Shown here: one piece after another, positions 47,067-56,701 of the stretch
How positions within the stretch are numbered: position 1 is the stretch's first letter
Layout: the number at the start of each line of letters is the position of its first letter
Origin: Thermoanaerobaculia bacterium
GTDB taxonomy: Bacteria > Acidobacteriota > Thermoanaerobaculia > Gp7-AA8
Direction of reading: 5' to 3'
DNA: 64,000 nt
Assembly: GCA_017883205.1 (NCBI GenBank)
Contig: JADGNZ010000011.1
Span: forward strand, 1 to 64,000
Position numbers and translations under genes: made by a program
The notes under the pieces: model-generated
Database searches by the model: none
Told to the model about the DNA's origin: nothing
Seen by the model: the letters and a program-made list of their open reading frames with translations, nothing else

Positions 47067-48899
<1,833 letters not shown>

Positions 48900-48923
48900 T
48901 CAACCTCTATCCGCATAGAATGC

Positions 48924-51931: not shown

Positions 51932-54802
51932 CTACGCCGCTGCCTGCCGCTGCTGCATCTGCACGGAATCGAGATCGTGGAGCAGTTCTCCGGCGGTGGC
52001 GTAGCGCGCTTTCGGATCTTTCGCCAGGCAGCGCATCACGATCGCGTTCACGACGCGGCCAATCTCGGGGCGCAGCTCGATGGGAGGCCGGGCCGTCTCC
52101 GTGATGTGGGCGGTCAGCACGCCGGTCAGAGACGAGGACGTGAACGGCTTCTGTCCTGCCAGCATCTCGTAGAGCATGACGCCCATCGAGTAAACGTCGC
52201 TGCGCGGATCGAGCTGTTTGCCCTGAACCTGCTCCGGACTCATGTAATGCGGCGTTCCCACGATCAACCCGGCCTGTGTCATCCCTTCATGCGCCTCGGC
52301 CATCCGGGCGATGCCGAAGTCCATGAGCTTGACCTCGCCCTTGTGATCGATGAGCACGTTCTGCGGCTTGATGTCGCGGTGAATGATCCCCTGCTCGTGC
52401 GCGGCTTCGAGTCCGCGGCAGATCTGCCGGCCGATGCCCATCGCTACACGCGTGGCCATCTGGTGCGCTTCCGCCTCTTCGAGCAGCTCTGCCAGCGTGT
52501 ACCCGCGCACGAACTCCATCGAGATGAAGTAGACGCCTTCCGCTTCGCCGTAGTCGTAGGTGCGGAGCACGTTCCGATGCGTAATCTTGCGGGCCAGCCG
52601 GATCTCGCGCTTGAAGCGCTCCAAATCCTCCGGAGAGCGCGACATCACGTCTCCGGGCAGCGTCTTGATCGCCACCGTCTCGTCGAGCTGCGTGTCGACC
52701 GCCTTGTAGACGACTCCCATCCCGCCGCGCCCGATGATCTGATCGATGCGGTACCGATTGGCGAACAAGTTCCCGGGGATCAACTCCTGGGCAGCAATCG
52801 CGGGAGCGGTCTGGCCCGGCATCGTCTCTCCGATGCGCATGGTCGCCATCGAACTGGACGCCTGCCCTACCGCACGCATCATGTTCGTCGTCAGCGCCAC
52901 GAGCGGCAGCGATGCCACCGGAAGCGGTTGCGGAAGCCACTTGAGTTGAACCTGCTCCGCTGTCGACGAGGAGAGGATCTCGCCACCAGCGGCCTGCGCG
53001 GTCTCGTAGGAGATGTAGGCATAGCCGGTCGGCGCGTGCCAGGCGAAGAGCATTGCCAGCAGCGGCGCGTTGCCGACGATGGCGATGCCGGTGTCCCCTT
53101 CGAGCTCGACGGAACCGGTCACGAACTCGCCCGTGGCGATGCCCGCGCCGATGGTCATGTGACCCTCGCCCATCGTGGCCAGTTCTTCGTTGATCGCTCG
53201 TGCGGCCCGGATGGCGTGCAGAATGCCGCGGTCGCCGCGGAAGACGCTGACGAGCCGGTGCCCGATGATCTCGCGGACGAAACCGTCCTGCCGCGCCACT
53301 TCCGATTCCTGAAGCTTCATCGCCCGGCTGACGGCGGCAATGACATTGGCAGCATCGCCCTCGCCGACAGTGGCCGGCAACTCGCGCAGATCCGTGACAA
53401 GCAGAGTCCCTTCGTCGAGCTTGGCTGCTTCGCTTTGCGGCTGTGCACCCGCCGCCTCCCGCTCCTGAGACTTGGCGGCCATCTGCTCGTACAGCTCTTC
53501 GATCTCAGCCTTGTCGCGAAGAGCGGTGATCATCTTGGCGAAGGAACGCCCCAGAATGCCGACTTCATCGCGTCGATCGATCGGCGGATGAACGGTGTAA
53601 TCGCCGCCCGTCACCGCCTGCGCGATGCCGGCCAGTTCCTCGATCGGATGCGTGAGCCGCTTTGCGATCAGCCACGAGAAGATGAACGCCAGGAGGAGAG
53701 CGCCACCGCCGCCGGCCAGGAGAGCGCTCTCGATGTCTTTGAACGGTTTGAGCTCGATGTCCAGTGAGCGAAGGAACACGGCCGCTCCGGCCGGCGGGCT
53801 GACAGGCGCGCCCTTTTCATCGGCAACGACGACCGACTGCAGCGGTCCGCCGGTCATGACGTACTTGCTGCGCTCGATCTCGACGGTCGAAGGCTGGACA
53901 TCCTTGCCCGTCTTGAGAATCGGATCGACGCTCTTCATCTGGGCCATGTTGAAGATCGGCGCATCCGTCGACCGGACGGGAGGACTGGAGACGTCCGCCG
54001 GAGCAAAGATGACCCCGGCATTGGTCGACTCGGCGATCCGGTTTGCGAAGACCTCGTCGATGGCGTAAGCGTTGATCAGATAGCCTTTACGGACGTTGTT
54101 CGCGCCCAGGATCATCGGGGCCATCGCAGCGTGATAGAGATGACCGCCCGTCGTGATGACACCCGTCACGACGTTGATCGAGGCGTCGTCGACGAGCTGC
54201 TTCACCATCGGCGTCGACGCGTAGAGGTCTTCCATTTTGTCGCCGGAGAGGGCCGGACGATCCGTCCGCGACAGAACGCGGCCCTGACCGTCGAGCACGA
54301 TCATCAGATCGCTGTGCAGCGATTCTTTCTGTTGATTCAGTTGGTCGAGGATGTCCGCGAAATCGATCGCGGGTGCGGCCGGGGTTGCCGGCGTGGCTGA
54401 CGGCGCAGCGGAAGGCTTGGTTTCCGCTGGAGCGCCCGCCGGCGTCGCAGTCGCAACATCGGTCGTCCCGCTCATGGCGTGCTCCATGTAGGCCACAAAC
54501 GACGGATCGCGGCCGAGGAACTCGGCGCTGAGCGAAAGTCTGCCGAGACGCTGGCGTTCCAACTCTTTGAACAGCTTCGCGGCGCTGGCAATCGACTTGT
54601 CGACGGTCGTTCTGGCAATCGCGTTCGCTCGTTGAATCGTGATCCCGATCGCAATTCCGACGACGATCACGATGAGGAGCGCGGTCAGGCCGAAGAGCTT
54701 CCAGACCAGCGGAAACTTTGCCTTTTCGACGACGGGCGCCTTGCGGACGGGCAACTCGCCGGTCACGGTCCGCGTAGGTGCGGCGAGAGGCTCCGCAGTC
54801 AC
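51932..54802 (-). CDS. Sensor Ser/Thr protein kinase with degenerate cyclase domain
   Basis: 956 residues from GTG 54802. A first membrane helix (about 33-55), an extracytoplasmic sensor region (about 56-360) with an Ala/Pro-rich insert, a second helix (ALLLAFIFSWLIA), and HAMP (about 385-440) precede a class III cyclase-like domain (about 465-620: LLVTDLRELP, GIATGEFVTGSVE, AIVGNAPLLAMLF). The second metal Asp of that domain is replaced (IGHRLVSVF instead of a GD motif), so catalysis is unlikely. The C-terminal kinase (about 685-945) is intact: IGRGGMGVVYK, VAIK, HRDIKPQNVL, MDFGIAR, GTPHYMSPEQ. It is coupled to the cupredoxin gene upstream. Confidence 0.93.
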   Translation of the reverse strand: MTAEPLAAPTRTVTGELPVRKAPVVEKAKFPLVWKLFGLTALLIVIVVGIAIGITIQRANAIARTTVDKSIASAAKLFKELERQRLGRLSLSAEFLGRDPSFVAYMEHAMSGTTDVATATPAGAPAETKPSAAPSATPATPAAPAIDFADILDQLNQQKESLHSDLMIVLDGQGRVLSRTDRPALSGDKMEDLYASTPMVKQLVDDASINVVTGVITTGGHLYHAAMAPMILGANNVRKGYLINAYAIDEVFANRIAESTNAGVIFAPADVSSPPVRSTDAPIFNMAQMKSVDPILKTGKDVQPSTVEIERSKYVMTGGPLQSVVVADEKGAPVSPPAGAAVFLRSLDIELKPFKDIESALLAGGGGALLLAFIFSWLIAKRLTHPIEELAGIAQAVTGGDYTVHPPIDRRDEVGILGRSFAKMITALRDKAEIEELYEQMAAKSQEREAAGAQPQSEAAKLDEGTLLVTDLRELPATVGEGDAANVIAAVSRAMKLQESEVARQDGFVREIIGHRLVSVFRGDRGILHAIRAARAINEELATMGEGHMTIGAGIATGEFVTGSVELEGDTGIAIVGNAPLLAMLFAWHAPTGYAYISYETAQAAGGEILSSSTAEQVQLKWLPQPLPVASLPLVALTTNMMRAVGQASSSMATMRIGETMPGQTAPAIAAQELIPGNLFANRYRIDQIIGRGGMGVVYKAVDTQLDETVAIKTLPGDVMSRSPEDLERFKREIRLARKITHRNVLRTYDYGEAEGVYFISMEFVRGYTLAELLEEAEAHQMATRVAMGIGRQICRGLEAAHEQGIIHRDIKPQNVLIDHKGEVKLMDFGIARMAEAHEGMTQAGLIVGTPHYMSPEQVQGKQLDPRSDVYSMGVMLYEMLAGQKPFTSSSLTGVLTAHITETARPPIELRPEIGRVVNAIVMRCLAKDPKARYATAGELLHDLDSVQMQQRQAAA

Positions 54803-54803
54803 C

Positions 54804-55475
54804 TCAGTAGTCCCTCGGCTGCTGATACGGCTTGCCCACCTTGTTCATGTGGACTGTCGCTCGATAGTTCCGGCTGTCGAGTGTGAGCGTCACGGCCTGG
54901 CTTGGCCCCGTGCTGGTGACGTCGACCACCGGCGCCTCGCTCGTGCCTCCCTGCTCGTTCCAGACATCGAGGCGGTACTTGCCCGGCGGAACATCGCCGA
55001 CGGAGAAGTTTCCGTTGGCATCGGCAAAGCCGAAGTACGGGGTCGACAGCACGTGAATGACCGCCGACATGTTCGGGTGGACATTGCAGTAGACGTTGAC
55101 GATGCCGGGCGATGCGAACTTCTGCGATTTGCCGGCACCTTTGCGGTAAAGCCCGAGGTCGAAGGCGTTGTTCGAGGAGAGCGAGAAGAGGTTGTGCGAG
55201 ATGGGATCATCGTTGGGGAAACTGACTGTCGAGCCGACGGGAACAGCCAGCACGTGAGGAATCAGCGTCTTGTTCCTGGTGACGAGTTGAAACGTCCCGG
55301 GAGCGCGGGGGACGACGCGGCCGTTCACCGGCTCGAGCCAGACGAGCGTTTCGGCGGGGATAGGATTCTGGCCACGCTTCGTCACGAACGCGACTTTTCC
55401 GGTGACGTTGGCCGCCGCCATAGGTAGCGCGACGAGTATGAGACAAGCCGCGAGATGGGCTGGAAGTCGTTTCAT
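54804..55475 (-). CDS. Secreted cupredoxin-like protein
   Basis: 223 residues from ATG 55475 with signal peptide MKRLPAHLAACLILVALPM. The cupredoxin core shows likely type-1 copper ligands: His in DPISHNLFS (about 91) and Cys, His and Met in YCNVHPNMSAVI (about 128-135). A carboxypeptidase-regulatory-like beta domain follows (GYxDANGNFSVGDVPPGKYRL pattern). Its stop is immediately before the GTG of the sensor kinase, so the two are one operon, and it could report redox or copper state to that kinase; this is inference. Confidence 0.82.
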   Translation of the reverse strand: MKRLPAHLAACLILVALPMAAANVTGKVAFVTKRGQNPIPAETLVWLEPVNGRVVPRAPGTFQLVTRNKTLIPHVLAVPVGSTVSFPNDDPISHNLFSLSSNNAFDLGLYRKGAGKSQKFASPGIVNVYCNVHPNMSAVIHVLSTPYFGFADANGNFSVGDVPPGKYRLDVWNEQGGTSEAPVVDVTSTGPSQAVTLTLDSRNYRATVHMNKVGKPYQQPRDY

Positions 55476-55566
55476 CTCAATGGGCTCCGGAAAGGCGTCA
55501 TCGTAGCACACGCTCCTGGGCGCATCAGCAAGTCCGTGGACCCGGCAGTTGGCCTGAAATTTAGTA

Positions 55567-55594
55567 TTGCTATTGGGGACGAAAAACGTATCAT
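55567..55594 (+). promoter_or_regulatory. Candidate promoter for the orphan plus-strand locus
   Basis: TTGCTA (55567-55572) and TATCAT (55589-55594) with 16-bp spacing, in a local AT-rich stretch between two minus-strand genes. By-eye match only. Confidence 0.35.
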
Positions 55595-55689
55595 CTTATC
55601 CATGCTCGACAGGTTACGGGTGGGATGGGCTGGAAGATTCAGCCGCGCTACGCGTTTGCCTTGGAGTATACGGTCTGGGTGAGGCAATT

Positions 55690-55965
55690 GGCCTCATCGT
55701 TCTTTGAAGCTTAACGACAGGACATCAAGATCCCGCTCCTCCCTTCCACCACAGGGCGAGTAGGAGCGGTCGATCCGGTCCGTGACGCTGGCGAGGTGGG
55801 CTGCTGATCCATTAGCAGCGGCGCTAGTTGCGGGTCCGCCGGAAATTCATGGGGGAGGAGGTACTAATTTCGATGGATTGTCCTAGTAAAACTCAGGGGG
55901 TTGGCTCGTAAGGGCTGGTCTCCACCCCGGAAGGGCGCCCGTTAAACGGCGCCCTTTTTCTTTTG
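55690..55965 (+). ncRNA. Candidate structured RNA or micropeptide locus
   Basis: A stretch with no long frame on either strand but several strong local stems: CCGCTCCT/AGGAGCGG (55733-55740 with 55762-55769), GCTGCT/AGCAGC near 55799-55818, and GAAATT/AATTTC near 55842-55870. It ends in a strong plus-strand terminator. Near the 3' end, GGAGGAGGTA (55854-55863) precedes ATG 55873 of a 12-codon frame (MDCPSKTQGVGS, stop 55909-55911). An in-frame ATG at 55849 would make it 20 residues. It does not show the hallmarks of tmRNA, RNase P RNA, SRP RNA or 6S RNA that I can recognise. Confidence 0.4.
55931..55965 (+). terminator. Rho-independent terminator of orphan locus
   Basis: AAGGGCGCC and GGCGCCCTT arms around CGTTAAAC, followed by TTTTTCTTTT on the plus strand. 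Nothing annotated on the plus strand feeds into it, which implies an unannotated transcript. Confidence 0.88.
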
Positions 55966-56047: not shown

Positions 56048-56701
56048 TCACTGGCCGAGGCACGCCTGACACGCTTCCTCGGAGGCACGCTGACGGCAGA
56101 TAGTGAGCACCTGATCGCGCGTCATGCTCTTCAACGCGCCGCGCATTTCGGTGCACATTTCAGTTTTTTCGATGCGGTCGATCGCCTGCGGCGGCTGGTG
56201 AAATGCGACACGATTGTTCTGCATCACGTGAACGCTGGGGCCGAGCTCCTCGTCATTGCGCAACTCGATCAGGTCGTTCCGGTTGTTGCCGTTCGACAGC
56301 GTGAGCGCGGACGCTCCATCCGGATCGGCGACGAGCATCGCGACCTGTCCCGGCCGATCGCGCGCGTCGAGAGTGAGCGCGACCTGACGACCGGGCGCAA
56401 ATGTGATGTATCCGCCGCGTTCCTGCCCGGTGTCGTCGTACAGCAGCAGGCCGGACGCCTTCTGCCCGCGCGGCACGCGTTTGCCGTTGAGGACCGCGTC
56501 GGGCAGATCGCCGCCCAGCCGCGCGCGAATGACGCCATGGGCATCGACGATGTCGATCTCCGAGAGGGTGAGAATCTGAGGCTTTGTATCTTTCGCGGCC
56601 GTCGTTCGACAGGAGGCGACCGCGAGTGCGAGCAGGACTGCGATGTTCAAAACGATCAAGAGGTGGATTCGCCGTTCGCTGGCGATGAGGCGTTCGCTCA
56701 T
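56048..56701 (-). CDS. Putative lipoprotein, hypothetical
   Basis: 217 residues. The N-terminal helix IHLLIVLNIAVLLALAVASC ends in a lipobox-like VASC. The mature part has three short beta repeats of the type IDIVDAHGVIRARLGGDLPD, SGLLLYDDTGQERGGYITF and VALTLDARDRPGQVAMLVAD, resembling a repetitive beta-solenoid or propeller fragment. The C-terminus has three or four Cys (ICRQRASEEACQACLGQ). Function unknown; probably anchored in a membrane facing the periplasm. Confidence 0.72.
   Translation of the reverse strand: MSERLIASERRIHLLIVLNIAVLLALAVASCRTTAAKDTKPQILTLSEIDIVDAHGVIRARLGGDLPDAVLNGKRVPRGQKASGLLLYDDTGQERGGYITFAPGRQVALTLDARDRPGQVAMLVADPDGASALTLSNGNNRNDLIELRNDEELGPSVHVMQNNRVAFHQPPQAIDRIEKTEMCTEMRGALKSMTRDQVLTICRQRASEEACQACLGQ

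Follow-up and report, generated by a model that had tools for sequence, protein, structure and literature searches.

One question raised by this stretch of Thermoanaerobaculia DNA (64,000 nucleotides in all, called the window below) is what is encoded on the plus strand between a pair of ORFs on the minus strand (54804-55511 and 56048-56701), where the original prediction placed an orphan locus that might be a novel small RNA or a micropeptide gene. The placement between these two ORFs is borne out, and positions 55567-55965 (+) form an apparent autonomous transcription unit. Judged from sequence, the two readings are not alternatives, as one predicted transcript holds both a structured RNA and a mini-ORF. 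Its parts are as follows:

55567-55594 (+), promoter: -35 TTGCTA (55567-55572), 16 nt, -10 TATCAT (55589-55594); 9/12 match
55628-55644 (+), leader hairpin 1, with the loop GAAGATT in the window and GCAATAAA in most relatives (from the alignment)
55678-55698 (+), leader hairpin 2 (boxB-like), directly 5' of the boxA-like element
55700-55708 (+), boxA-like element TTCTTTGAA, a candidate NusB/NusE site by its rRNA-leader likeness
55733-55739 / 55763-55769 (+), helix P1, UA to CG in two genomes
55736-55743 (+), anti-SD strand CTCCTCCC, overlapping P1 and P1b, with 55853-55860 as alternative partner
55741-55744 / 55753-55756 (+), P1b, the inner stem within P1, with CG, UG and UA variants
55746-55750 (+), pseudoknot strand 1, CCACC in the P1 loop, pairing with 55795-55799 (95% paired)
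55775-55842 (+), P2-P3-P4 arm: P2a (CCGG, 55775-55778 / 55839-55842), P2b, P3 and P4
55795-55799 (+), internal loop GGTGG within the arm, the pseudoknot partner
about 55800-55819 in the window (+), P4, with both-side changes at 5 pairs
55851-55864 (+), Shine-Dalgarno (SD) block GGGGGAGGAGGTAC, GGAGGTA invariant in 16/16 copies
55873-55911 (+), micro-ORF of 12 codons, MDCPSKTQGVGS, with ATG in 16/16 and a homologous in-frame TAG or TAA in 16/16
55896-55928 (+), stop-codon hairpin GGGGG...CCACCCC, straddling the micro-ORF stop
55929-55965 (+), intrinsic terminator, an 11 bp stem at 55929-55958 and TTTTTCTTTT

Conservation and extent of the locus

By DNA search the locus was found in 16/19 genomes of the source order (soil Acidobacteriota), with a single copy per genome and an identity of 74-95% in the matched part of the core. 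The named relatives are MAGs labelled Thermoanaerobaculia or Acidobacteria gp7, all of them metagenome assemblies. Conservation across the 16 copies goes up at the promoter and down past the terminator; mean column identity is 0.41 5' of the promoter, 0.70-0.81 across it, about 0.5-0.7 in the leader, 0.85-0.96 in most of the core and 0.38 directly 3' of the terminator. The promoter, which had been called plausible, is near chance when the TTGCTA/TATCAT pair is taken alone (0.6 expected in a simple scan), yet its region is the best conserved upstream block among the relatives. The block TTGCGATTTCGANCGAAAAACGTATCAT is kept in 15 copies, and the most distant copy has a different promoter pair, TTGCAT...TATACT. 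Transcription would start near 55601. The plus-strand terminator, described earlier as a textbook one, deserves the name, its stem being almost invariant in 16/16 copies. At the sequence level the locus thus has what defines the transcript of a dual-function sRNA, a small autonomous unit with its own promoter and terminator.

A covariance model of the RNA (R1) recovers the identical 16 copies among 149 genomes of the class. The same model gave no convincing copy beyond the order when about 130 other genomes of the class were searched, nor any outside the order at E 0.001 in a 396-genome sample of the phylum; since strict filters were used in these large searches, very divergent copies could escape detection. 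Four weak R1 matches (E 0.01-0.1) were regarded as chance, and matches in G064, G040 and G075 (22-25 bits) were not accepted, being without the SD block or poorly aligned. Within the order, G001, G004 and G014 gave no match to the locus, and the cupredoxin-like neighbour gene was likewise not found in them, in a search that had no positive control. The rpoD-proximal sequence of G001 and G014 holds no copy of the RNA. The missing copies may be explained by loss, relocation or an assembly gap. Downstream of rpoD in other orders no SD/boxA unit was found.

At Rfam 15 gathering thresholds tRNAs alone pass in the window and the 16 homologue loci, and the terminator hairpin is the centre of each of the best sub-threshold matches (BjrC68, ctRNA_p42d and ftsZ-DE). 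The models of Acido-1 (RF01686) and Acido-Lenti-1 (RF01687), noncoding RNAs described from acidobacteria, have no match at the locus or its homologues. Two housekeeping RNAs were ruled out, 6S RNA by the genome's RF00013 match at G000:C46 (68.9 bits) and tmRNA by the RF00023 match at G000:C31 (183 bits). The promoter scan is near chance and the single-sequence fold marginal, and it is because of the comparative data that we hold it as very probable that the locus is a real, conserved and previously unlisted RNA gene. The novel small RNA of the original prediction is supported by its presence in 16/19 genomes of the order, its covarying helices and the lack of an Rfam match; a lack of conservation in close relatives would have spoken against it, and both sequence and structure are conserved. 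It adds a new RNA family with a covariation-supported pseudoknot to an order known here from metagenome assemblies.

The pseudoknotted core and the SD block

The structure model was built on a 16-sequence alignment (A4). In the core, 97.3% of cells are paired over the 16 sequences. Ten pairs are changed on both sides, as compared with 3.7 in shuffles and 0-4 after sliding, and 20 cells show both-side changes, as compared with 5.1 in shuffles; as the 16 sequences are related, the shuffle controls overstate significance and do not give probabilities, and the slid control retains the relatedness. Compensatory changes are found in P1 (U-A to C-G in G005 and G018), in P2b (G-C to A-U in G006 and G018), which has both-side changes at 2 pairs, and on both sides of the pseudoknot (C-G to U-A in G011 and G012). 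The strong stems that had been claimed stand out little in single-sequence folding, which beats shuffles by a small margin (z = -2.0), and are much better supported by comparison, since the covariance search of homologous regions that had been proposed as a check gives covarying helices in 16 copies. A conserved aptamer-like fold with covariation, as is known from translational riboswitches, is therefore present.

Another question is whether this fold can reach the SD. The strand CUCCUCCC (55736-55743) is part of P1/P1b and is also complementary to the SD block at 55853-55860; this anti-SD helix is possible in all 16 copies, with a single C-A mismatch in two. RNAalifold picks the anti-SD helix, whereas covariation favours P1. 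The anti-SD helix is backed by invariance and has no covariation of its own; in the single column that is informative, the changes follow P1, and in two genomes they disrupt the anti-SD pairing. When P1 or the SD-paired state is forced, the energies, computed without the pseudoknot, lie <=2 kcal/mol apart in 7/16 genomes, and the lowest-energy state differs by species. All sequences have U at A4 column 12, yet the column that it pairs with in P1 has A in just 10/16, which would fit a second pairing partner in the SD. We infer that a two-state switch may operate at the SD.

The micro-ORF

The original prediction allowed a 12-codon or a 20-codon frame, and only the shorter one stood. The 12-codon frame, with GGAGGAGGTA...ATG (55873-55911), is kept in 16/16 copies with its SD, start and stop, while the 20-codon frame from ATG 55849 was rejected, its start being TTG, GTG or absent in several copies. 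Peptide conservation, which had been proposed as a check, is found in most relatives in the form M-D-C-S-[SN]-[KT]-P-E-G-A-[ST]-S, with a length of 12-16 aa; in G005 and G018 the peptide is strongly diverged and the fold is retained. The ORF is 39, 42 or 51 nt long across the 16 copies, so that length differences inside it are only +3 or +12. Outside it, the SD-ATG spacing differs by 2 (seven copies have two extra bases between the SD and the downstream ATG) and the stop-to-terminator distance varies freely from 10 to 30 nt, neither in multiples of 3. The ATG is placed 11 or 13 nt past GGAGG, which is a long gap for SD-to-ATG. In the codon-substitution test, frame 0 has a mean BLOSUM of 0.84 and the other two frames have 0.28 and -3.77, but 18.5% of column shuffles are as good, a lack of significance that is expected for 10 codons; given so weak a test, translation of the micro-ORF is no more than likely. 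No run of codons for a single amino acid is found in it. The stop-codon hairpin keeps its outer pairs in 16/16 (one U-C), and its inner part is rewritten among species. The SD, the short ORF with conserved start and stop and the terminator are together the parts expected of a uORF leader.

Possible roles of the RNA

The 5' half of the RNA resembles a translational riboswitch and the 3' half a uORF/terminator motif, and the neighbour that defines both is absent. With translational riboswitches it shares a complex, conserved pseudoknot fold 5' of the SD together with a possible competing anti-SD pairing, but it has no Rfam riboswitch match, known ligand or downstream metabolic gene. By anatomy, not by sequence comparison, it shares a small transcript with a very small ORF with VcdRP/VcdP, a dual-function sRNA with a 29-aa protein (PMC8672173), and with peTrpL, a leader peptide acting in trans (PMC7298713); the micropeptide here is shorter than VcdP and is preceded by a conserved pseudoknotted, possibly SD-gating domain.

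The reading that we tentatively prefer, giving it somewhat less than an even chance, is an SD-gated structured RNA with the micropeptide as its sole translated output, either orphan-riboswitch-like or a micro-ORF-carrying sRNA; the idea that its working parts are the SD gate and the micro-ORF is put forward with the same reserve. Comparison of the copies shows an RNA gene that stands alone and spans about 365 nt, with promoter, leader, pseudoknotted core, strong SD, 12-16-codon ORF and terminator. Nus factors may bind the boxA-like element, so that the polymerase can cross the roughly 270-nt untranslated structured leader. The core would then take one of two exclusive states, P1 with the pseudoknot and an open SD, or CUCCUCCC-SD pairing and a closed SD, and a signal (ligand, protein, Nus complex or temperature) would shift the balance and decide ribosome loading. 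With no gene found consistently downstream that could be attenuated, the output would lie in the micropeptide and/or in ribosomes passing the stop-codon hairpin, an event that would alter RNA exposure or decay. A stricter version, in which a signal-responsive pseudoknotted sensor under an rRNA-type leader gates a 12-16-residue peptide as sole product, is rather unlikely; if it were true, this would be a riboswitch-like gene without an attached metabolic gene. What sets the RNA apart is the combination of an rRNA-like leader, a sensor-like fold, a possible SD gate and a 12-16-codon ORF without a regulated neighbour, which bears on the question of riboswitch-like domains serving micropeptides or free-standing RNAs, not metabolic operons.

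Also on the unlikely side, though the strongest rival, is a base-pairing or protein-binding sRNA in which the folded RNA is the function and translation of the mini-ORF would be incidental or would only adjust stability or turnover. The stand-alone gene, the strong terminator, the conserved fold, the non-significant codon test and the two genomes where the fold outlasts the peptide would fit such an RNA. It is harder to reconcile with the SD, ATG and in-frame stop in all copies, with ORF length changes in multiples of 3, and with the finding that no long unpaired seed is conserved other than in the SD block.

If the RNA were an attenuator or uORF leader, the terminator that controls a downstream gene would form or not according to whether the mini-ORF is translated, as in the fthC and ilvB motifs (PMC11109978). 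The anatomy is of the fthC type, with SD, short ORF, stop within a hairpin and the terminator directly after (PMC11109978), and this RNA adds a 135-nt pseudoknotted domain and a boxA-like leader 5' of the SD. The fthC and ilvB motifs, however, sit 5' of one conserved gene (PMC11109978), and the neighbourhood here does not offer one. Downstream, tRNA-Leu(UAA) and an acyl-CoA dehydrogenase gene are found on either strand or are absent; they come next on the same strand in some genomes, but in many members the gene that follows lies on the opposite strand, and a same-strand gene that could be regulated is not found in most. The window's own downstream gene is convergent and is at that place in no other locus examined. 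The RNA unit persists whatever gene follows it and on whichever strand, so it is not the leader of one gene. Together with the lack of a single-amino-acid codon run, this makes attenuation improbable.

Upstream of the RNA, most members have a divergent cupredoxin-like gene and a kinase, and G010, G017 and G018 have rpoD on the same strand. The RNA is directly 3' of rpoD in G018, which suggests an ancestral order rpoD-RNA-tRNA-Leu, and follows rpoD at a distance of 1-7 kb in G010, G017 and G000; in the window, the primary sigma factor gene rpoD is at about 48174-48900 (+), about 6.7 kb upstream. The window also holds, at 51932-55511 (-), a HAMP/CHASE4 Ser/Thr protein kinase (956 aa) paired with a small cupredoxin-like protein, a call made by eye with weak Pfam matches only (CarboxypepD_reg); the pair is divergent from the RNA in 13 genomes including the source. 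Downstream of the RNA, the 217-aa ORF at 56048-56701 (-) matches nothing in Pfam, and homologues of it are missing from all 15 related loci examined; it looks like an insertion between the RNA and tRNA-Leu in the source genome.

A further option, again improbable, is a Nus-controlled RNA: as in E. coli suhB (PMC5725501), repression of the mini-ORF would come from looping of the boxA-bound complex to the SD, and the RNA would in this way be coupled to rRNA synthesis capacity. The position behind rpoD would suit it, and so would the hairpin followed by a TTCTTTGA-type candidate boxA, which is shared with the boxB/boxA leaders of rRNA and with suhB (PMC5725501), although here the candidate boxA precedes a short autonomous RNA. 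Leader hairpin 2 is predicted in most homologues with both arms changed (GAGGC/GCCTC vs GCGGC/GCCGC). As 16S is missing from the source assembly, rRNA leaders were taken from three family members, G010, G013 and G015; they have GGTTCTTTGACAACTGAATAG 3' of a short CGAC...GTCG hairpin, with the boxA variants GGTTCCTTGACAACTG and, in one copy, TTCCTTGA, and the TTCTTTGA of our leader resembles them. The rRNA leaders have GGTTCTTTGACAA, and exact TCTTTGA is found in the last 50 nt 5' of the core in 9/16 genomes (0.04 expected). This suggests a putative Nus-type leader. Against Nus control, the candidate boxA is imperfect, with near matches, in the other 7/16, and it lies at varying distances from the core.

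That DNA-level elements or chance structure explain the conservation, as the marginal single-sequence fold might suggest, is hardly credible given the register-correct covariation, the conserved promoter and terminator and the in-frame ORF changes.

Two observations concern the leader elements. A conservation bump at 55625-55639 in the column profile lies over leader hairpin 1, whose conserved loop GCAATAAA/GGAAGAAA is possibly a protein site. The region 5' of 16S (L085 1-480, L086 and L087, from G010, G013 and G015) has recurring TGCACAA...TTGTGCA, GGAATA and TCTTTGA-like blocks, which are apparently degenerate repeats of leader elements.
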